In this document: piece by piece, positions 5,891 through 39,022 of the stretch
Layout: each line of letters begins with the position of its first letter
How positions within the stretch are numbered: position 1 is the first letter of the stretch
Position numbers and translations under genes: made by a program
DNA from: an uncultured Alphaproteobacteria bacterium
Lineage (GTDB): Bacteria; Pseudomonadota; Alphaproteobacteria; Caulobacterales; Parvularculaceae
Assembly: GCA_902826095.1 (NCBI GenBank)
Contig: CADEDN010000001.1
Span: 248,001 to 312,000, forward strand
Direction: 5' to 3'
DNA: 64,000 nt
The notes under the pieces: generated by a model
What the model saw: the letters and a program-made list of their open reading frames with translations, nothing else
Databases searched by the model: none
What the model was told of the DNA's origin: nothing

Positions 5891-6448
5891 TTGAACGCAG
5901 CCATTTATTTCATCGCCGCGGTCGCCCTCATCGCGATCGTCGTCGCCGTTCTCTATAACCAACTCGTCGGCAAGCGGCAGCTTGCGCGCAATGGCTGGTC
6001 CGACATCGACGTGCAGCTCAAACGCCGCGCCGATCTGATTCCGCAATTGGTGACGACCGTCAAAGGCTACGCCGCGCATGAGCGTTCGCTGTTCGAGGAA
6101 ATCGCCGAGAAGCGGAGCGCCGCCCTCGCCGCGGGCGACGATCCCGAAAGGCGCGCCGCCGCGGAAGGCGCGCTGGCGCGCCCGGTCAATCGCATGGTCG
6201 CGCTCGCCGAGGCCTATCCCGATCTCAAGGCGAACCAGAACTTTCTCGACCTGCAGCGTCAGCTCGCCGAAACGGAGGACAAGATTGAAATGGCGCGGCG
6301 CTTTTACAACGGCGCGGTGCGCGAATTGAACATTCTCGTCCATTCGGTCCCGTCGAATGTCGTCGCCGGCGCTTTCGGCTTCAAGGAGAGCGCCTATTTC
6401 GAGATCGCCGACGGCGAGCGGGCGGTTCCGAAGGTTGAGACGCGATGA
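5891..6448 (+). CDS. lemA: LemA family protein
   Basis: 185 residues: one N-terminal membrane helix (ALIAIVVAVLYNQLVGKRQ), then an all-alpha LemA domain with NGWSDIDVQLKRRADLIPQL, YPDLKANQNFLDLQRQLAET and RRFYNGAVRELN, all hallmark segments. The start is TTG at 5891, 6 nt after GGGAGG; no ATG precedes it with a ribosome site. LemA genes often pair with a DUF2207 membrane protein, as here: the stop overlaps an ATGA that may couple translation. Biochemical role not established. Confidence 0.93.
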   Translation: MNAAIYFIAAVALIAIVVAVLYNQLVGKRQLARNGWSDIDVQLKRRADLIPQLVTTVKGYAAHERSLFEEIAEKRSAALAAGDDPERRAAAEGALARPVNRMVALAEAYPDLKANQNFLDLQRQLAETEDKIEMARRFYNGAVRELNILVHSVPSNVVAGAFGFKESAYFEIADGERAVPKVETR

Positions 6449-6465
6449 GCGACATGCGCGGCGCC

Positions 6466-6577
6466 GCATCCTTCGCGACGCGATGCTTCGCATCGCTCCT
6501 CAGGATGAGGACAGAGCTTGTTTCAATGATAACCGCCCTCATCCTGAGGAGGCGCGGAGCGCCGTCTCGAAGGATGC
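6466..6577. repeat. CATCCTTCG-type repeat A2 at the lemA/DUF2207 junction
   Basis: Runs from GCATCCTTCGCGACG to GTCTCGAAGGATGC with inner CTCCTCAGGATGAGG and CCTCATCCTGAGGAG. Its last three-base ATG (6574) supplies the likely functional start codon of the DUF2207 protein. The frame is open through the whole repeat from the ATGA at 6445. Confidence 0.82.
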
Positions 6578-8280
6578 GGCCGCTCACGATCGTCGCCTTG
6601 GTCTGCGTCATCGTCCCCGCGCATGCCGAAGAACGCATCAGCAATTTCGACGTTGCAATCGAGGTCGAACAGGAGGGCGACATCCGCGTCGTGGAGACGA
6701 TTTCGGTCGTCTCTGAGGGCGATCAGATTCAGCGCGGCATATTCCGCGATCTGCCGCGCTTTTACCTCAAAGGCGCGCGCAAGCTTCCTTACGTCTACGA
6801 CGTCAAGAGCGTGACGCGCGACGGCGAGAAGGAGCCCTATGCGATCGAGAAGGAGGGGAACGCCTTTCGCATCCGGATCGGCGACGCAGACGTCTATCTC
6901 GCCGACGGGCCGCACCGATATGCGCTGACCTATGAGGTAAAAAACCAGATCCGCTATTTCGAGAATTATGATGAAATCTACTGGAACGCGACCGGCAATT
7001 ACTGGGCGTTCCCGATCGAACGCGCGCGCGCCGCGGTGAGACTGCCGGGCGGCGCGCCGGCTGTTCAGCATGCGGCCTATACCGGCCATGAAGGCGCAAG
7101 CGGGCGCGATTACGAATACCGCTTCGAGGGCGGCGCGCATCATTTCAATGCGACGAAGCGGATGGCGCCCGGCGAAGGGATGACCGTCGCTGTCGGATTC
7201 GCGAAGGGCGTCGTCGATCCGCCCTCCGCCGCCGATGCGCGCGGCGAATGGCAGGCCGAGAACGCCTCGGCGATCGTTCTTGGCGCGGCGTTCCTGCTGC
7301 TCGGCGGGTATTTTCTCGCCATGTATGAGCGCGTCGGGCGCGACCCGCCGAAGGGCCCGGTGTTCGCGCGCTATGATCCGCCAGCGGATCATTCGCCCGC
7401 CGCCGTCCATTACATCTATCACCGCGGCCTCTCCGGGCACGACGCGCTGATCGCGAGCCTCATCAATCTCGCGATCGGCAAGCGCGTCGAGATCGACGTC
7501 GACAAGACGAGGAAGCTGACGGTGCTGACGAAAGGGCCGGGCGGCCGGGGCGGGCAGCGCTTTTCCGAGGCGGAAGAAGCGCTCGAAGCGCGGCTGATGA
7601 CGGGCGTCGACGGCGCGTTCTCGTTCGGCAAGACCTACAACCCGACATTGACAAGCGCCTATGAGCAGTTCCGCAAATCGCTCGCAAAGAGCTACGGCGC
7701 GGAATATTTCCGCTGGAACACGGGCTATCTCATCCTCGCCGCGCTCGGCGGGATCGGCGCTGTCGTTCTCGCCGCCAATCTCGCGCTTGCCTGGACGAGC
7801 CTTCACACGCTTGTCGCCCTCGGGCTCGGCGCGATGATCCTCGCCGGCGCCTATTTCCTGCCGGCGCCGACGAAGAAGGGGCAGGAGATCCGCACCGAGA
7901 TCGAGGGCTTCCGGCTCTACCTCAAGACCGCCGAGGAAATGCACCTGAACTTGGTCGAGGTCGGCGGCGAGGCGCCGCCGCCGATGACGATCGAGCGCTA
8001 TGAACGGTTCCTCCCTTACGCGATCGCGCTCGGCGTCGAAAAACCGTGGACGGAGCATTTCGAGGCGCTGATGCCGAAAGAGGCCGCCGAGCACCGCCCG
8101 AGCTGGGCGCACAGAAATTACGGCGGCGGGCGCAGCCTTGCGGGCCTCAACAGCGCGCTCGTCTCGAACCTTTCAAGCGGCGTGTCGAACTCGATGCCGA
8201 AATCCTCGGGCTCTTCAGGCTCCGGCGGCGGCGGCTCCTCCGGCGGCGGCGGCGGCGGAGGGGGCGGCGGCGGGTGGTAG
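6574..8280 (+). CDS. DUF2207 family membrane protein
   Basis: 568 residues from ATG 6574. MRPLTIVALVCVIVPAHA is a signal peptide; then an extracytoplasmic DUF2207 beta domain (ISNFDVAIEVEQEGDIRVVE, IFRDLPRFY, NATGNYWAFPI), a membrane helix near 225-245, a cytoplasmic part, two more helices near 375-425, and a Ser/Gly-rich tail of about 30 residues. This is the YciQ-like partner of LemA. An in-frame ATG at 6445 overlaps the lemA stop but would put 43 repeat-encoded residues before the signal peptide; it may have been the ancestral coupled start. Confidence 0.85.
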   Translation: MRPLTIVALVCVIVPAHAEERISNFDVAIEVEQEGDIRVVETISVVSEGDQIQRGIFRDLPRFYLKGARKLPYVYDVKSVTRDGEKEPYAIEKEGNAFRIRIGDADVYLADGPHRYALTYEVKNQIRYFENYDEIYWNATGNYWAFPIERARAAVRLPGGAPAVQHAAYTGHEGASGRDYEYRFEGGAHHFNATKRMAPGEGMTVAVGFAKGVVDPPSAADARGEWQAENASAIVLGAAFLLLGGYFLAMYERVGRDPPKGPVFARYDPPADHSPAAVHYIYHRGLSGHDALIASLINLAIGKRVEIDVDKTRKLTVLTKGPGGRGGQRFSEAEEALEARLMTGVDGAFSFGKTYNPTLTSAYEQFRKSLAKSYGAEYFRWNTGYLILAALGGIGAVVLAANLALAWTSLHTLVALGLGAMILAGAYFLPAPTKKGQEIRTEIEGFRLYLKTAEEMHLNLVEVGGEAPPPMTIERYERFLPYAIALGVEKPWTEHFEALMPKEAAEHRPSWAHRNYGGGRSLAGLNSALVSNLSSGVSNSMPKSSGSSGSGGGGSSGGGGGGGGGGGW

Positions 8281-31868: not shown

Positions 31869-32405
31869 TCAATCGATCGACACCAGCAGCGCGGCGGCGC
31901 CGTCCTTAACATTGATCTCGATCGGCAAATCATGCGCCTCGAATTGCGCGAAGGCGCCCGGCGCGACGGCGCCGATCTTTAGGGTCATGCACGGCGCCAG
32001 CAACGGCAGAACGCCAAAGGCGCGCGCGCGGCGATGCCGCCCGGGCTCAAGGCGCGCGACATCGGCAGCGACGCGCGCGGGATCGAAGATCAAATTGAAA
32101 TCGCGAACACTGCCTGAAACGAGATCGCAGTCGATCGCCAGATCGCCGCTGAACCGAACCGGCCGCCCGAGCGTCGCTTCGATGACGCCGCTGTCGTGAC
32201 GAAGCCGCAGACCAGCGCCCTCGACGACCGTCAATATGCGCGTCGCGCCGGGAAAATGCGAAAACGGACCGTCCCGATCGACATCCGCGAGCGACAATCG
32301 CCAGAGCATTCCTTTGTCGTCCGAGAGCCGGGCGATTTCGCGCGTGACGCCGCCGCCGTTTTTCCAGGGCTGCGCGGGAAGATCGTCAAGCATGAAGATT
32401 TTCAT
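31869..32405 (-). CDS. hutD: HutD family protein
   Basis: 178 residues, cupin-like. PAQPWKNGGGVTREIA near the N-terminus and FSHFPGATRILTVVEGAGLR are HutD signatures. HutD is thought to limit hut operon activity by sensing an intermediate. ATG 32405 is chosen over the upstream reading that overlaps the glycosyltransferase. It is convergent to hutF and 10 nt behind the glycosyltransferase gene, so transcription may be tied to that unrelated operon. Confidence 0.88.
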   Translation of the reverse strand: MKIFMLDDLPAQPWKNGGGVTREIARLSDDKGMLWRLSLADVDRDGPFSHFPGATRILTVVEGAGLRLRHDSGVIEATLGRPVRFSGDLAIDCDLVSGSVRDFNLIFDPARVAADVARLEPGRHRRARAFGVLPLLAPCMTLKIGAVAPGAFAQFEAHDLPIEINVKDGAAALLVSID

Positions 32406-32415
32406 TTTCGCCGCC

Positions 32416-33930
32416 TCAATTAGGACAGGCGCCGGCGTCATAGAGAATGACCGGACCCGCGCCGCGCAGGATTTCATTGAGCCGCCTTGAAGGACTTGCC
32501 GAAAGGCCGATCGCCGCGAGCGCGCGATGCGTCAGCGGCTTCCTGCGGACCGCATCTCTCATGACTTCTCGCCATTGGGGTTCGGCGGCGAAGTCGTAGG
32601 CGGATCCGTCGGGCGTTGCGCGATAGATCAGTCCGCAGGCCTGCGCCGGTCGGCCTTTATGCGAAACGACGCGCCGTCGGCTTTCGTCGTCGCTGACGCC
32701 CGCGAGAAGCAAGAGCGTCCGCGTCCGCGCCGCCGTCGCATGATCAGTCGTCACGCTTGCGCCCGTATCGATCATCAGGCGGGCGAGATGGCGCGATTCC
32801 GAATATTCGTCATAGCGGCGAAAGTCGATGATCGCCGCGTTGAGCGAAAAGAGCGCCAGAAAGACCGCAACGCCGAGCGTCCGGCCGCGCGTTTCATACA
32901 AGTGACCCACATAGGCGCCAAGGCTCAGGAAGGAGGCGTATGCGACGATCGGATAATAGTCGTTCGATTTGAGATTGAGCCCATAGGCCGCGCCGACATA
33001 GGCAAAGAGCGCGCAAAGGCCGAAGAGCCGCGCGATATCGCGTCTTGTCTTGTCGGCGAAACGCGCGCGGAATCCCTTGTCCAGAAATACGGCGCCGGCG
33101 AGCACGAGGAACAGCGTCGTTTCGGCGGCGCTGATCAGATAGAAGATGGGCTGCACGACATAATCCGCCGGGCTCTTGGCGGGCGTGATGATGTCGACAT
33201 AGGGATTGGCGCCGCGGTGGCCGAAATCGATCAGATAGCGGTAAAGCGGATCGCCCGTGACGGCGCCGTAAGCGATCATTTCGATAATAATCAAGGCGGC
33301 AAAGCCGGCGCCTGTCGCGAAAATCGCGGGCCATGAAAGCGGCCGTCGCAGAAGGAGGAACAGGGCGAAAGCCGCGGGAAGAAAAATCGCGACTTCGCGG
33401 CAAAGCCAGGCGCCGCCGGCGACGGCGCCGGCGAGGGCGTAGCGCTTGGGCCCGGCGCCGCCTTTGACGGCGTCCGCGAAAATCCAGATCGAAAGCGCGA
33501 CGAAAAACGCTTCAACGCCGCTGATCGAGACTTCCGACTGTTTGGTGACGAAGAAGGCGGATGTCGCGACAAGCGCCGCCGCGGCGGCGGCGCCCGCCGC
33601 GCCAAGATGGCGGCGTCCAAAGAGCAGCGTGATTGCGACGAGGCCGCCGGCGAAGAGAACATTCGGCAGCGCCGCCGCAAGCTCGCTCGCGCCGAACGCG
33701 GCGAAACTCGCCGCCATCGGGACGATCAGCGGCAGGCGCAGCGCCCAATGCGTCGTCCCGAGCGTCGGCCCGTCTTCACGCCAACGGAGCGCCGCGTCGA
33801 TATATTTTCCGGAATCATTGGGCGCAAGGCCGCTCCAGCCAATGAGCAAGGTTGCGAGGAAAAGGAGGGCGATGACGCCGGCCGCGATCGCCGGTCTGTC
33901 AAACCAGTCCGTTCGATACTCAGCCTTCAT
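32416..33930 (-). CDS. GT39-like membrane glycosyltransferase
   Basis: 504 residues with about 10 helices. GLAPNDSGKYIDAALRWRED gives the acidic periplasmic loop after helix 1 expected of PMT/ArnT-type (GT-C) enzymes; a soluble tail of about 110 residues follows. Such enzymes use polyprenyl-phosphate sugars. Acceptor unknown. It lies 24 nt after the phosphodiesterase gene, suggesting a shared surface-modification or export task. Confidence 0.75.
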   Translation of the reverse strand: MKAEYRTDWFDRPAIAAGVIALLFLATLLIGWSGLAPNDSGKYIDAALRWREDGPTLGTTHWALRLPLIVPMAASFAAFGASELAAALPNVLFAGGLVAITLLFGRRHLGAAGAAAAAALVATSAFFVTKQSEVSISGVEAFFVALSIWIFADAVKGGAGPKRYALAGAVAGGAWLCREVAIFLPAAFALFLLLRRPLSWPAIFATGAGFAALIIIEMIAYGAVTGDPLYRYLIDFGHRGANPYVDIITPAKSPADYVVQPIFYLISAAETTLFLVLAGAVFLDKGFRARFADKTRRDIARLFGLCALFAYVGAAYGLNLKSNDYYPIVAYASFLSLGAYVGHLYETRGRTLGVAVFLALFSLNAAIIDFRRYDEYSESRHLARLMIDTGASVTTDHATAARTRTLLLLAGVSDDESRRRVVSHKGRPAQACGLIYRATPDGSAYDFAAEPQWREVMRDAVRRKPLTHRALAAIGLSASPSRRLNEILRGAGPVILYDAGACPN

Positions 33931-33954
33931 GGCGATCCGCGCCGGAAACTCCGC

Positions 33955-35520
33955 TCACGCCGAAGCGGCTACCGGCGTTCGCGTAGCGACGCAATCTGCC
34001 GGCGCGTCGTCGAAAAGCGCCGCCGCGCAGCGGCCGAGATCCTTGATGTCGCGGACGGCGCCGAAGGCCGCGGAATGCGCGCCCGGCCCGATGGCGAGGG
34101 CGAAAGCGTCCGGCGCATGGTTGCCGCCTCTGCCGGTTTCGAGTTGCGCGCGGATCTCGCCGATCGTCGGCGAATGGATCGCGGTCGCCGGTGCGTCGGG
34201 CCTGTAGCCGACAATGAGATCGGGAATACGCTCCGTCCGCGCGCCGGGAAACAGTCTGTGCGCGTCCAGAATGTCGCCGAACAGCGGTTCGCCCGTCGCC
34301 GCGACCTTGATCTTCATGAGCTCGGCGATCAGCCAGCGGCGATAATCGGCGAGCGCCGCGCCGTCGGCGTCGAAATAGCCGTCGCTCTCGCGGCCCTTGA
34401 TGTTGAAGCGGATGAAGGCCTCGCCGCCCGAGGCGCAGCGGAACGACGGCGTTCTTGCAAAATCGATCCCGCCGAGCAGCGTGCGGTTGACGACGAAATC
34501 CTGAACGTCCTCGCCGAGCGCTTCGGCGAGCGCGTATTGCAGGCGATAGGGAACATGCGCGCGAAGGCGCGCGATCAAGCCGGGCTTGCGCTTTGCGGGC
34601 GCGCTCTCGCCGCGCTCCTTCGCAAAGGCGGCGTTGAGGCGGGCGAGGATCTCGTCGAGGAAATGATCCTGCGCGCGGTTCGCCGCCATGCCGTGCAGCG
34701 CCATCAGCAGGATCGTCGTCCGCCCGTCATCGACCTTTTGCAGCAGCCGCCCAAGCTCGCGGTCCTGCGCCTTGTAGACTTCGAGCAGCGCTTCCTTGTC
34801 CGCCTGCGATCCGAAATCGCCGTCGACGACAAGGAGATTGTGGCCGGCGCGATGGATCTCGTAATAGCCGACGACGAAGAACCGCCAGTCCTCGCGCTCC
34901 ATCAAGAACAGCGTCGCGTCGGTCTTGCGGCGCATCGCGTCAATCATGCTGTCGCGGATGCGCCGGCTCTGGGCGAGCGACTTCGGCACCGGCACTTCCT
35001 TGCCGATCGGCCGGCGCCCGAAGCGGCGCTTGATCTCGGCGAGCAGCGTCCGGTCGGTCGACGTCGCCGCGCCGCTGCTCTGGAAGGACCAGTTGAAAAT
35101 CTCAAGGCAAGGCGATTTCGCGGGATCAAGCGTGAAGCCCGCGTCAAGCGCGATCGACTTGACGCCCCGCCGCGCGAGACTGTGCCAGAACGGCTCAAAA
35201 TGGAATTTGTCGATCCAGTCCATTTTCGACGTGCGCTTGAAACGCATCGCGTCGGCGCACCACTGGAAAGGATAATAATGGCCGTGAACGCCGGGGTCCT
35301 CGCCGGAAGCGAAGGTCGGCCAGACCGAGGCGCTCATATGGGCGGCGGGCGAGGAGAGTTCCGATAATGCGCCGTCTTTCATCATGCCGCGCAACACCGG
35401 CAATGCATCAAGATGCGCCTGCGCGAATTGAAGGCTCATCGCGTCAACCATGACCATCAGGACGCGCGGCTCGCCCTGCGGCGCGCGACTGTCTTGTCGG
35501 TTAAAGCTGTGAACCCCCAT
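33955..35520 (-). CDS. Type I phosphodiesterase / nucleotide pyrophosphatase family protein
   Basis: 521 residues from ATG 35520. RVLMVMVDAMSLQFAQ gives the metal-binding Asp; SASVWPTFASGEDPGVHGHY carries the nucleophile (Thr) region of the alkaline phosphatase superfamily; LLMALHGMAANRAQDHFLDE replaces the usual SDHG metal site with ALHGM, a deviation. IPDLIVGY fits the third site. No signal peptide is seen. Possible substrates are nucleotide sugars or phospho-lipids. Confidence 0.75.
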   Translation of the reverse strand: MGVHSFNRQDSRAPQGEPRVLMVMVDAMSLQFAQAHLDALPVLRGMMKDGALSELSSPAAHMSASVWPTFASGEDPGVHGHYYPFQWCADAMRFKRTSKMDWIDKFHFEPFWHSLARRGVKSIALDAGFTLDPAKSPCLEIFNWSFQSSGAATSTDRTLLAEIKRRFGRRPIGKEVPVPKSLAQSRRIRDSMIDAMRRKTDATLFLMEREDWRFFVVGYYEIHRAGHNLLVVDGDFGSQADKEALLEVYKAQDRELGRLLQKVDDGRTTILLMALHGMAANRAQDHFLDEILARLNAAFAKERGESAPAKRKPGLIARLRAHVPYRLQYALAEALGEDVQDFVVNRTLLGGIDFARTPSFRCASGGEAFIRFNIKGRESDGYFDADGAALADYRRWLIAELMKIKVAATGEPLFGDILDAHRLFPGARTERIPDLIVGYRPDAPATAIHSPTIGEIRAQLETGRGGNHAPDAFALAIGPGAHSAAFGAVRDIKDLGRCAAALFDDAPADCVATRTPVAASA

Positions 35521-35657
35521 GAACCCCGCCTGACGCATCCTCAGGAAAAGCACGGTCTATACCAGTCCGGATTTGACGAGGCGAGTCCGCATGATGCGCT
35601 CGCGAACCGGCGGCGCGGACAATTTTCCGCGCGCCCGCCGACGCGCCTCGCGAAGCG

Positions 35658-36590
35658 TCAGAAGTCAGGCTTCAGGCTGACTTTTTCGAGTTCTCTCGCG
35701 ACCATGCGCCCCAGCACGGCGGGGCCGATCCAGGTCAGGAGGCAGAAGGCGACCCAGAAGATCGCGGCGCCGTTGGCGATTGCAGGCGGCGCTGACCGCA
35801 GCACGGTCCTCGCCAGAATGTTGTAGCCGATCCAAAGGCCGATCAGGATGAACACGCGCGTCTTGCCGTCAAACTGCTGCATGAACATCGCCCATCCCCA
35901 CCACAGGGCCATCAGCGGGTTTTTCTTGATTTTGGTCTGGCAGAGAAGATTGACCGCGGCTTCATTCTGCGCGTCGTGACGCAGCGCCCAGAGCGCCAGA
36001 TCATGCGCCTTCTCAAGGTCATTGCGCCTCAACGCGATCTTTCCGCGTGCGATCAGCAAGTAATCATTGTCGACGACATGGTCTGGCGCGCTCGCCAGCA
36101 GCGTGTCCGCCGCGTCGAGTTCGCCTTTGTCGATGAGGAAGTCGGCGTAAGAGGAAATGACGGAAGGGTCGGCGGGATCGAGCCTTAGCGCCTCTTCGAA
36201 GGCCGTGCGCGCCTCGTTGAGCTTCGCGCAGGAATCAAAGAGCGCGCCGAGCAGGCGGTGCGACTCCGCGTCTTCAGGGTCAAGTTCGATCGCGCGCCGG
36301 ATCGATTGTTCCGCGAGCGCGAAATCCTTCTGGCGCAGATGGGCGAGCCCTTCGACGCGGTGGGCGAGTATGAGCGAGGGGTCGGTCGAAAGGGCCGCTT
36401 GCGCCTCCTTCAGCGCATCCTTGGCGAAACCCTTGTCGATGAAGCAGGCGGCGAGCAGCGCTTGCGCATAGGCGTGATCGGGATGGCGGGCGAGCACGGC
36501 CTTGATTTCGTCAATTGCGCTGTCGAGGCTTCCTGCGGCGATGAGCGCATGCGCCTTTGCGAGCGAGCCTTCCATCGTGTCGTCTGTCAT
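35658..36590 (-). CDS. TPR protein with C-terminal membrane helices
   Basis: 310 residues. Six or so TPR units span residues 8-215 (HPDHAYAQALLAACFIDKGF, DPEDAESHRLLGALFDSC and others), then two membrane helices near 235-300 (VFILIGLWIGYNIL, IFWVAFCLLTWIGPAVL). A cytoplasmic scaffold fixed to the membrane is likely. It starts 9 nt after the AAA+ gene, so the ATPase may act at this scaffold. Confidence 0.8.
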   Translation of the reverse strand: MTDDTMEGSLAKAHALIAAGSLDSAIDEIKAVLARHPDHAYAQALLAACFIDKGFAKDALKEAQAALSTDPSLILAHRVEGLAHLRQKDFALAEQSIRRAIELDPEDAESHRLLGALFDSCAKLNEARTAFEEALRLDPADPSVISSYADFLIDKGELDAADTLLASAPDHVVDNDYLLIARGKIALRRNDLEKAHDLALWALRHDAQNEAAVNLLCQTKIKKNPLMALWWGWAMFMQQFDGKTRVFILIGLWIGYNILARTVLRSAPPAIANGAAIFWVAFCLLTWIGPAVLGRMVARELEKVSLKPDF

Positions 36591-36599
36591 CGGGCGGCG

Positions 36600-37949
36600 C
36601 TATTTGGCGTGGCGATCAAGGAAGGCGACGACATCGTCGTAGAGCCCGCCCTGATTTGCGTATTTCGCGTAGTTTCGCGCCGATGTCAGCCATTCGATCG
36701 TCGTCGCTTTGACGGTCTTCAGCGCCTCGGCGAAATGCGTCGGCGAAATCGGCGCGACGGAACCGGAAAGGCTCTCTTCGATCGCGAGATCGCACGCCTC
36801 CTCGACAAGGCTCGCGAGATCGGCGCCGGAAAATCCCGAAGTCTGGCGCGCGATCATGTCAAGATCGAGCGTCGGCGATTGCGGGCGCTCCGCAAGCAGG
36901 CGGGCGAGGATCTCGCGGCGCGCCGGCGCGTCGGGTGGGGGCACGAAAATGAACCGGTCGAACCGTCCATGGCGGCGAAAGGCGCTGTCGATCGCCCACG
37001 GAACATTGGTCGCCGCCAGAATGAGGACGCCCTCGTTGACGCTCCCGAAACCGTCCATCTCGGCGAGAAATGTCGACACCATGGCGGCGCCAGTCGAGGA
37101 CTCGCCGAAGCGGCGGCGCGCGGCGAGCGCTTCAAGCTCGTCGAAGAACAGCACGGCCGGCGCCTGCTGGCGCGCTTCGCGAAAGATCGCCGCGAGACGC
37201 TTTTCCGACTCGCCGATATACATGTCGAGCACGTCGGGGATTTCGACATTGACGAATTTGGCGCCGCATTCGCCCGCGGTTGCGCGCGCCAGCATCGTCT
37301 TGCCGCAGCCGGGCGGGCCGTACATCAAAACGCCGCCGCCGGACTTCTTGCGAAAGCGCTGGAACAGGGACGGTTTCTGGAACGGCAGGATGATTTTTCG
37401 ACTGATCTGCGCCTTGACGTCGTCGAGTCCGCCGACGTCGGAAAAGCGGATCCGGTCGCGAACGGCGAGCGGCGCAAAGACCGGTTCGTCGCCTGGTTGG
37501 TCGCCGATTGGCCGGCCAGTGAGATCAACGATTGTCGCGCCGCGCGTTTTCGCCGGCGCCGCGGCGAGGCGCGCATCGATCGCGGCGTCGCGAAGCGCCG
37601 CGTCTTCTGCGACAAGCGGCCGATAAGTTTCGACGGCGTCGCCGAGCCGGCCCAACGCGATCAGCGCCCGCACGCGATCGAGCTTCTCGTCATTGCTGTC
37701 GCCCGCAGCCCAGGCAAGCGCGCCTTCCCCGCGATCGGTTTCAAGCAGCAACCGGCTCACAAGAGACTTGACGGGCGCGGAGAGCGCGCCGTTCTTTGGC
37801 GGGCCGGCACAGAAGAAATCGAGAGCCGCGGCTTGGTCGGCCGTTTCACGTGCGGCGCGGATGAGGCTTCGATAGAGCGCGTCCGAGGCCGGCGCCGCGC
37901 GACAAACCTCGATCAGGTCGTTCAAAGCTTCGTTCTCTTCGGCCGCCAT
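36600..37949 (-). CDS. AAA+ ATPase, CDC48/FtsH-like single module
   Basis: 449 residues. The N-terminal 160 residues are helical, perhaps TPR-like. FSDVGGLDDVKAQISRKIIL opens the AAA module; Walker A is GPPGCGKT, Walker B AVLFFDELEAL, sensor 1 LAATN and the Arg finger region FRRHGRFDRFIF, then the C-terminal lid TSGFSGADLASLVEEAC. This is a remodelling ATPase of the classic AAA clade; no protease domain. ATG 37949 follows GGAGCGCGCAAGGG; ATG 37976 and 37967 are alternatives. Confidence 0.87.
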   Translation of the reverse strand: MAAEENEALNDLIEVCRAAPASDALYRSLIRAARETADQAAALDFFCAGPPKNGALSAPVKSLVSRLLLETDRGEGALAWAAGDSNDEKLDRVRALIALGRLGDAVETYRPLVAEDAALRDAAIDARLAAAPAKTRGATIVDLTGRPIGDQPGDEPVFAPLAVRDRIRFSDVGGLDDVKAQISRKIILPFQKPSLFQRFRKKSGGGVLMYGPPGCGKTMLARATAGECGAKFVNVEIPDVLDMYIGESEKRLAAIFREARQQAPAVLFFDELEALAARRRFGESSTGAAMVSTFLAEMDGFGSVNEGVLILAATNVPWAIDSAFRRHGRFDRFIFVPPPDAPARREILARLLAERPQSPTLDLDMIARQTSGFSGADLASLVEEACDLAIEESLSGSVAPISPTHFAEALKTVKATTIEWLTSARNYAKYANQGGLYDDVVAFLDRHAK

Positions 37950-37996
37950 GCCCTTGCGCGCTCCCATGATCCGCACAAGGCCTTAGCACGCCGCCC

Positions 37997-38923
37997 TTAA
38001 AGCCGGAACGCCTTCAGCGCCGCTTTGGCGATCGGTTCGCCCCATTCCTGGACGAAGTGGCCGGCGTCGGCGATCTCCATCGGTTCGGGGCAGCCTTTGA
38101 TGAATTTCCGCAAGTAATGCATCGACGGCGGGCCGAGGACCGGGTCCTGCATGCCGACGGCCATGAAGCTCTCGCCGTTCCACTCTTCCGACCAGAACTT
38201 CCGGGCGCGGAGGGATGTCTCGACGCCCTCCTTCGACAAGGGCGTCAGATCCGCGGCTCCTTGCTCTTTCAGCATCACGAGTTCCGGAAAGCGGCGGACG
38301 CCGCCCTTGTAGCGCTGGTCGGGAAAGGGCGCGTCATAGGCGGCCATTTCGGCGTCGGAGAGGATCGGCGTCGCGCGCTTCATCAGCTCGCCGACTTTGA
38401 GGTCCGGCTGCGACCGGTTGAACGCGCGCCACATGGCGAAACCCGCCGGCGCTTCCTCGCCGCCGGGAAGGCCGGTGTTCATGACGATGAGGCGGGTGTA
38501 GCGTTGCGGCGCCGCCATCGGCAAGGTGAGGCCGAGGACGCCGCCCCAATCCTGCACGACGAGACAGATGTTCTTCAGATCGATGCGCTCGACGAAAGCG
38601 AGCAGCGCGTCGCGGTGGAAATGATAGGTGTAGAGATTATCGTCGACCGGCTTGTCCGAGCGGCCAAAGCCGAACATGTCGACGGCGACGGCGCGATGCC
38701 CCGCCGCAGTGAAGACCGGGATCATCTTGCGGAAGAGATAGGCCCATGACGGCTCGCCATGGATCATGAGGAACGTCGCTCTCGCGTCCTTCGGCCCCTC
38801 ATCGACATAATGCATGCGGAGGCCCTCAAAGCCCTTGAAGCCCTCGACATAATGCGGCGCGTAAGGCCAGCCGGGGAGATCGGCGAAACGGTCGTCGGGC
38901 GTTCTGAGGGCTTCGATGGGCAT
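37997..38923 (-). CDS. Haloalkane dehalogenase-type alpha/beta hydrolase
   Basis: 308 residues. LRTPDDRFADLPGWPYAPHY at the N-terminus, HGEPSWAYLFRKM (oxyanion hole and halide-binding Trp), VQDWGGVLGLTLP (nucleophile Asp with Trp), VGMQDPVLGP (acid) and DAGHFVQEWG (His) match subfamily HLD-I. It would hydrolyse carbon-halogen bonds, releasing an alcohol and halide. Physiological substrate unknown. ATG 38923 has AAGGA upstream. Confidence 0.88.
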   Translation of the reverse strand: MPIEALRTPDDRFADLPGWPYAPHYVEGFKGFEGLRMHYVDEGPKDARATFLMIHGEPSWAYLFRKMIPVFTAAGHRAVAVDMFGFGRSDKPVDDNLYTYHFHRDALLAFVERIDLKNICLVVQDWGGVLGLTLPMAAPQRYTRLIVMNTGLPGGEEAPAGFAMWRAFNRSQPDLKVGELMKRATPILSDAEMAAYDAPFPDQRYKGGVRRFPELVMLKEQGAADLTPLSKEGVETSLRARKFWSEEWNGESFMAVGMQDPVLGPPSMHYLRKFIKGCPEPMEIADAGHFVQEWGEPIAKAALKAFRL

Positions 38924-39022
38924 CGGCGGGATCCTTGCGGCTTGCGTCCATGATGACGCCGCGGATGGCGGCGCGTAAAGCGCCTTGCGCATCAAAGCGC
39001 CGGGCGAAGATGTGGCGACGCG

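Follow-up and report, generated by a model that had tools for sequence, protein, structure and literature searches.

AAA unfoldases that lack a protease and pull proteins from membranes are known from eukaryotes. Pex1/Pex6 is a two-ring machine, Msp1 bears its own membrane anchor, and the partner of the defence ATPase IetA is the protease IetS. The gene pair compared here with such systems, encoding an AAA+ ATPase and a membrane protein with tetratricopeptide repeats (TPR), lies in a 64,000-nucleotide (nt) stretch of DNA from an uncultured alphaproteobacterium. This stretch, hereafter the window, covers positions 248001 to 312000 of contig C1 in a 3.79-Mb genome (G000), the nearest named relatives of which in the ATPase scan are Parvularculaceae. 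The sections of PMC5762779 drawn on here describe Pex15 as helical and tail-anchored and as the recruiter of Pex1/Pex6, a motor that works as an unfoldase by threading. The window pair would resemble this arrangement, and those with Pex26 or APEM9, in that a helical adaptor with a C-terminal anchor brings an AAA unfoldase to the membrane (PMC5762779, same sections). In those sections Pex1/Pex6 is a heterohexamer, and the Pex15 core has 12 helices and bears no TPR label; the window pair, by contrast, has one AAA module, a TPR-like N-terminal region, a two-helix hairpin as its anchor and a bacterial host. The resemblance would be a likeness of working, and no homology is claimed. Msp1/ATAD1 is comparable as an AAA protein that takes out membrane proteins (PMC9273213, in part), whereas the window ATPase lacks any hydrophobic segment that could serve as an anchor. 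A Cdc48 homologue of Actinobacteria, Cpa, has also been described (PMC6017811, in part).

The ATPase gene (36600-37949) and the TPR protein gene (35658-36590) are both on the minus strand, the second beginning 9 nt past the stop codon of the first. They are followed on the same strand by genes for a phosphodiesterase-like protein (PDE, 33955-35514) and a GT-C glycosyltransferase (32416-33930), 24 nt apart. Both spacings had been given correctly in a preliminary description made from the sequence of the window alone. The start of the ATPase is taken to be the ATG at 37949, in agreement with its homologues and with the end point given in the preliminary description, while the open reading frame (ORF) itself reaches a GTG at 37976.

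A scan of genome contigs, run over stretches that matched the peptide patterns of the ATPase, identified 218 relatives of it, and the best 80 loci were kept. Seventy-five of these were testable, in that their ATPase ORF fell in the cluster and was followed by 1700 nt or more of sequence; L021, L062, L075 and L079 offered too little room, and L053, the ATPase ORF of which did not fall in the cluster, was set aside although it has two TPR ORFs downstream. In 74 of the 75 testable loci, from Pseudomonadota, Myxococcota and Acidobacteriota, the ATPase is followed on its own strand by a homologous TPR gene, the exception being L061. These 74 span 43 hand-made genus labels, with every metagenome-assembled genome (MAG) counted as a label of its own. 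In the family Parvularculaceae, the TPR gene adjoins the ATPase in all five genomes that carry the latter, that of the window among them; G014, G012, G020 and G025 seem to be identical with L009, L011, L012 and L010, respectively, among the 75. The partnership of AAA and TPR genes suggested in the preliminary description is thus borne out, and the two constitute a recurring, unnamed bacterial pair, arranged as a self-contained, closely spaced two-gene module. The accompanying remark that no named system has such a composition also holds in NCBIfam, Pfam and the openly licensed literature examined: neither protein reaches the cut-off of an NCBIfam model, and no description of the module was found in that literature, as judged on titles and the beginnings of abstracts. 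Two Parvularculaceae MAGs carry, after the pair, a further TPR membrane protein that shares about 30% identity with that of the window (L011, 3828-5618; L012, 8279-10110).

The ATPase is laid out as an N-terminal helical region (about residues 1-170), one classical AAA module and a conserved C-terminal block (NYAKYAN...); its assignment draws on Pfam, alignments of homologues and a phmmer search of the PDB. Membership of the classical AAA family (PF00004) is indicated by a score of 137.9 bits, with 44.4 for AAA_lid_3, both above the Pfam cut-offs, and by the motifs on the minus strand: Walker A GPPGCGKT (37296-37319), the segment MYIGE (37209-37223), which on general AAA anatomy we take to resemble pore loop 1, and Walker B VLFFDE (37137-37154). 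Walker A, MYIGESE, the FFDE of Walker B and an R-x-G-R-F-D-R region are invariant in 22 of the 22 chosen homologues that were aligned, and the window protein keeps the Walker A, Walker B and arginine-finger-region motifs intact. The N-terminal 170 or so residues are read as TPR-like: no TPR Pfam match at E <= 0.001 is found in the window protein, a Pseudomonas homologue matches TPR_14 at E 0.0006 (below the TPR_14 cut-off), and the Nonomuraea ATPase has TPR-like repeats by eye. Neither a protease domain (Pfam) nor a hydrophobic segment (hydropathy) is found in the window ATPase.

Among the best 60 of 282 PDB matches, the closest solved relatives are p97/Cdc48, VCP-like ATPases and AFG2, and no Msp1 or ATAD1 chain is present. 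By its sequence the window ATPase is of Cdc48/AFG2 type with one AAA module. It is set apart from Cdc48/p97, AFG2, VCP-like ATPases and Cpa by this single module, by the TPR-like N-terminal region and by the TPR membrane partner, and it scores 204.7 bits against a CDC48 cut-off of 802.65. Likeness to FtsH, a bacterial membrane AAA protein, is confined to the AAA part (198 bits against a cut-off of 600), and FtsH differs in having a C-terminal zinc protease domain and N-terminal membrane helices; the other ATPase match in the window's own genome (42% over 227 residues) is probably FtsH itself. The AAA domain is likewise similar to those of the defence ATPases IetA/IteA and TRIP13, yet the score against the IteA (IetA) model is 92.2 bits where the cut-off is 510, the partner gene encodes a TPR membrane protein, and comparison of the TPR protein and of a small membrane protein described below with PADLOC gave no match to an Iet partner.

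The TPR protein is recognised from Pfam (TPR_19 at 59 bits, together with other TPR models, above cut-off) and from an AlphaFold2 model with a mean predicted local distance difference test (pLDDT) score of 90.9. The model consists of a solenoid (about residues 6-223) followed by two C-terminal helices, also evident in hydropathy: a predicted membrane helix (residues 242-262; 35805-35867, minus strand) and a long second helix (residues 269-303; 35682-35786, minus strand) with its membrane part at the start. The solenoid is predicted to be carried on a C-terminal membrane hairpin, for the two helices of which the confidence of the model is good. No hydrophobic segment is found at the N terminus by hydropathy. 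Its score against PilW, 74.4 bits, is below that model's cut-off of 154, and the Foldseek matches displayed are TPR solenoids with widely differing functions, a PilF structure among them.

The extreme C terminus is the most striking feature of this protein. In the window it reads RELEKVSLKPDF (35661-35696, minus strand), and the C termini of the homologues give the family pattern [KR]EL..V.L..[DEG][FY]-COOH. Seventy-nine TPR ORFs were clustered, of which 78 are at least 280 residues long and the other, in L075, is cut by a contig end. The last residue is F (57) or Y (20) in 77 of the 78, and the remaining sequence, the second copy in L011, is also cut by a contig end, so that all 77 uncut proteins end in an aromatic residue; F and Y together make up 5.4% of the residues in these proteins. 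Conservation extends inwards, with Glu at -11 in 74 of the 78, V, F or I at -7 in 75 and L or F at -5 in 76. The 78 sequences are distinct and come from 75 loci with 44 labels, a count inflated by kinship.

In 69 of the 75 testable loci a membrane protein of about 160 residues is encoded between the ATPase and TPR genes; those without it are L009-L012, L061 and L082, the last from a Rickettsiaceae MAG. The motif Y-x-I-x-DEP is present at the N terminus of 71 of the 74 clustered ORFs for this middle protein, and in an alignment of 31 chosen sequences four of the nine invariant residues fall within the first 12. The model of the protein (pLDDT 91.3) has membrane-length helices and a coil at the N terminus. 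Two members tested gave no Pfam match at E <= 1, and Foldseek found no PDB fold match at E <= 0.001, the best being at E 3.5. In G182 the middle slot is occupied by a divergent protein of 131 residues, starting YRINDEA, with 4-nt overlaps on both sides. We infer that in most other lineages examined the small membrane protein is a third component of the module or a dedicated client of it. The PAO1 genes PA3084-3086, a guess at such a triad, were dropped as a candidate because PA3086 occurs in a rhomboid-protease review.

Searching the plasmid collection with the Nonomuraea ATPase gave 10 records at E <= 1e-60, all from actinomycetes, seven of which were examined; five carry gene tables. In six of the seven the ATPase is followed by what reads by eye as a TPR protein with membrane segments. 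Where gene tables exist no gene intervenes between the ATPase and its partner, the two overlapping by 4 nt in four records and lying 2 nt apart in the fifth; the partner is annotated as a TPR protein in three and as hypothetical in two. In S. nigrescens, which has no gene table, the frame after the ATPase has two hydrophobic segments. The pair of Nonomuraea gerenzanensis (L121, 92-8048) lies after three genes whose translations suggest a polyketide synthase, a crotonyl-CoA-reductase-like protein and a SnoaL-like protein, and may belong to a biosynthetic cluster; no polyketide synthase is found within 6 kb of the actinomycete copies in the five records that have gene tables.

The interpretation we favour, with a probability of about 0.5, is that the ATPase acts as an unfoldase of Cdc48/AFG2 type that docks on a TPR adaptor in the inner membrane, where it would extract or remodel membrane proteins. 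The ATPase would assemble into a ring and be recruited by the TPR protein to the cytosolic face of the inner membrane, through contacts between TPRs, through the conserved aromatic tail, or through both; membrane-associated clients would then be threaded through the ATPase pore and so extracted or remodelled. The TPR domain is placed in the cytosol because the protein has no N-terminal hydrophobic segment and, by eye, has basic residues beside the hairpin. A more specific version, which we put forward tentatively and regard as rather unlikely in its entirety, is a bacterial dislocase resembling Pex1/Pex6-Pex15, in which a single-module TPR-AAA unfoldase would sit on the aromatic tail of the TPR hairpin adaptor with the Y-x-I-x-DEP protein as receptor or client. 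Such a system would range from actinomycetes, in which both that tail and the small protein are lacking, as far as Pseudomonas and myxobacteria, and is undescribed in the literature searched.

Several observations weigh against the unfoldase interpretation. The aromatic tail is missing from the six actinomycete TPR proteins read, and therefore it is no universal docking element. The middle protein is lacking in the window's own family. ATPases without a TPR neighbour exist: L061, G052 and G056 have no same-strand TPR frame in the stretch examined. The pore-loop segment also differs outside the 22-row alignment, reading DRWIGSSE and DRYIGGTE in G052 and G056 and DKFIGEPE in G182. The counts of loci are not independent, since the loci are related and 28 of the 75 are labelled Pseudomonas (15) or Lysobacter (13). 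Finally, the ATPase was found in only four of 299 sampled Pseudomonadota genomes, the window's included (E <= 1e-80, five first-look candidates scored per genome), so the module is patchy, which counts against a housekeeping role. The middle protein was found in two of the 299 (E <= 1e-6, at most 12 candidates scored per genome), adjoining the ATPase in both. G182, with its divergent protein of 131 residues in the middle slot, is another of the four genomes with the ATPase.

An alternative that we consider possible, if on the doubtful side, is that the ATPase and TPR protein together form an assembly or quality-control factor for a single dedicated membrane client, in most cases the protein of about 160 residues, with its Y-x-I-x-DEP terminus serving as a recognition tag. 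In its favour, that protein is encoded between the ATPase and its TPR partner at 69 of the 75 loci, and the near-constant N-terminal motif, with its concentration of invariant residues, would suit such a tag. Against this, the pair persists in the window and in L009-L012 although the small protein is absent from these loci, no copy of it was detected elsewhere in G000 at E <= 1e-6 (12 of 14 candidates scored), and the five actinomycete pairs with gene tables have nothing between their members.

That the module is an anti-phage or other conflict system built on an AAA ATPase appears improbable. Its patchy presence (4/299) is consistent with this idea, as are the similarity of the ATPase to the IetA (2.4e-27) and TRIP13 (8.6e-19) models and the weak matches of the TPR protein to PrimPol (E 0.008; 9e-5 for the Pseudomonas TPR protein) and PDC-M71B (E 0.005). 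However, the ATPase matches fall in the AAA part, with the IteA score far under the NCBIfam cut-off, and the tree of the ATPase groups largely by genus. In this tree of 82 rows the closest grouping of the window ATPase is with L009-L012 (99/93), G052 and G056 joining next (99/92); Pseudomonas and Microbulbifer are each a separate clade, as Lysobacter nearly is (row L084, labelled Lysobacter, lies elsewhere), and Nonomuraea, L082 and G182 are long branches of unsure placement. The solo ATPases of G052 and G056 (L007 and L008) come from genomes of the same order and form a long branch beside the window's clade. The neighbours of the module also recur, unlike those of a mobile island: among 15 labelled Pseudomonas loci, as read from translations, nadK is found at 15 and a metallophosphatase and pepN at 14 each. 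Recurrence reaches 13 of 14 among loci labelled Lysobacter, and the neighbour read in Lysobacter and its kin is an M13 peptidase.

This recurrence of neighbours is otherwise bound to lineage. The only neighbour family with many genus labels is one of serine/threonine protein kinase-like ORFs, comprising 12 ORFs under 10 genus labels (L022, L024, L031, L038, L039 and others), myxobacteria and Acidobacteriota included, a count that stands without a background comparison. These ORFs occur on either strand and, in the five that were placed, at 1.2 to 5.9 kb from the module. Myxobacteria carry many serine/threonine protein kinases, and because of this and the lack of a conserved position the kinase neighbour is given little weight.

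There is similarly little likelihood that the module serves the assembly of an envelope machine, such as a pilus, a secretion system or an exopolysaccharide apparatus, in the manner of the TPR proteins PilF and PilW. The PilW score and the PilF structure among the Foldseek matches point in this direction, but the former is under the cut-off and the latter stands among solenoids of varied function, and no pilus or secretion family was noticed by eye among the recurring neighbours listed.

The remaining explanation is that of the preliminary description, in which all four genes form one set and work as a machine for the assembly or turnover of surface glycans, an idea that it held would fail if the genes did not co-occur in relatives. 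Each protein was searched, at a threshold of its own, in 61 genomes, namely G000 and 60 relatives, some of which are incomplete (G003 81%, G005 72%). The ATPase was found in seven at E <= 1e-60 (G000, G012, G014, G020, G025, G052 and G056), the TPR protein in five at E <= 1e-25 (G000, G012, G014, G020 and G025), PDE in four at E <= 1e-20 (G000, G003, G005 and, weakly, G006 at 27% identity) and GT-C in eight at E <= 1e-15. Both pairs occur together in one of the 61, the window's own genome. Contig C360 of G003, a congener, carries in order genes for a dehalogenase, PDE, GT-C, HutD, HutF, FGase and MFS (HutD from a Pfam match; HutF, FGase and MFS named from translations), collinear with the window at 62-93% identity. 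Its dehalogenase and PDE genes are separated by 124 nt with no AAA or TPR gene, at the point where the window has the AAA-TPR pair. Five other congeners have neither pair downstream of their dehalogenase gene (82-85% identity) in the stretch fetched. Homologues of PDE, GT-C, dehalogenase and HutD were found at none of the 80 ATPase loci (blastp E <= 1e-4; ORFs of at least 90 residues within up to 8 kb per side, less on short contigs).

On the junction in G003 and the lack of co-occurrence of the pairs in the genomes searched, a four-gene unit is rejected; PDE and GT-C are separate from AAA-TPR and only happen to adjoin it in the window's genome. Gene-neighbourhood conservation, which had been proposed as the check, thus upholds the AAA-TPR half of the original grouping and fails for PDE and GT-C, and the glycan machine finds no support in the genomes and loci searched. 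Despite the common strand, the short gaps inside each pair and a GT-C paralogue in G000 that adjoins genes reading as glycosyltransferases, a single machine of four genes is highly improbable in view of these separate occurrences.

The two flanking enzymes match their families, with Pfam scores above cut-off for PDE (Phosphodiest, PF01663; 71.3 bits against a gathering threshold of 23) and GT-C (PMT_2; 46.2 bits). They too are thinly supported as a unit, because of the 61 genomes only G003 and that of the window have them side by side, and in G005 PDE is on another contig than GT-C, with a divergent gene for a membrane protein on one side and a helicase-like gene on the other. Pyrophosphatases of this type have an S-D-H-G metal motif, the Asp of which belongs to the full metal site. 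The corresponding segment of PDE reads ALHGM in the window and G003 and SLHGM in G005, and no PDB match at E <= 1 was available to align against; the metal site is possibly altered or lost in these three proteins. As LHGM stands in place of S-D-H-G, PDE activity is not to be assumed. A second GT-C in G000 (L107, C1 50000-64000, ORF 6283-7839), 41% identical to that of the window, adjoins glycosyltransferase-like genes, and its locus seems a likelier place for glycan work than the window.

The start of PDE is most likely the ATG at 35514, which aligns with the ATG in G003, while its ORF reaches a GTG at 35553; because of this choice of start the distance between the TPR and PDE genes is 143 nt. 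The predicted folding of this intergenic stretch is no stronger than that of shuffled sequences (z -0.08), and a terminator within it is unsupported, a terminator scan giving 8 sites against 8.6 in shuffles. The HutD gene (31869-32477), identified by Pfam, overlaps the 3' end of the GT-C gene. At the other edge of the junction, and likewise outside the module, is the dehalogenase-like gene (37997-38995, minus strand), which ends 47 nt before the ATPase start on the same strand and matches the haloalkane-dehalogenase-like model PRK00870 with 354.2 bits against a cut-off of 265. Counting that of the window, eight of the nine genomes in the genus keep it, with identities of at least 82%. Neither HutD nor this dehalogenase-like gene figures in the preliminary description.

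This case shows that a four-gene glycan machine read from raw sequence was an accident of neighbourhood. If the favoured interpretation of the AAA-TPR pair is true, a recurring bacterial module of two or three genes would offer a simple system in which to search for the substrates of an unfoldase that extracts or remodels membrane proteins, and the module is carried by culturable strains of Pseudomonas, Lysobacter, Myxococcus and Streptomyces.

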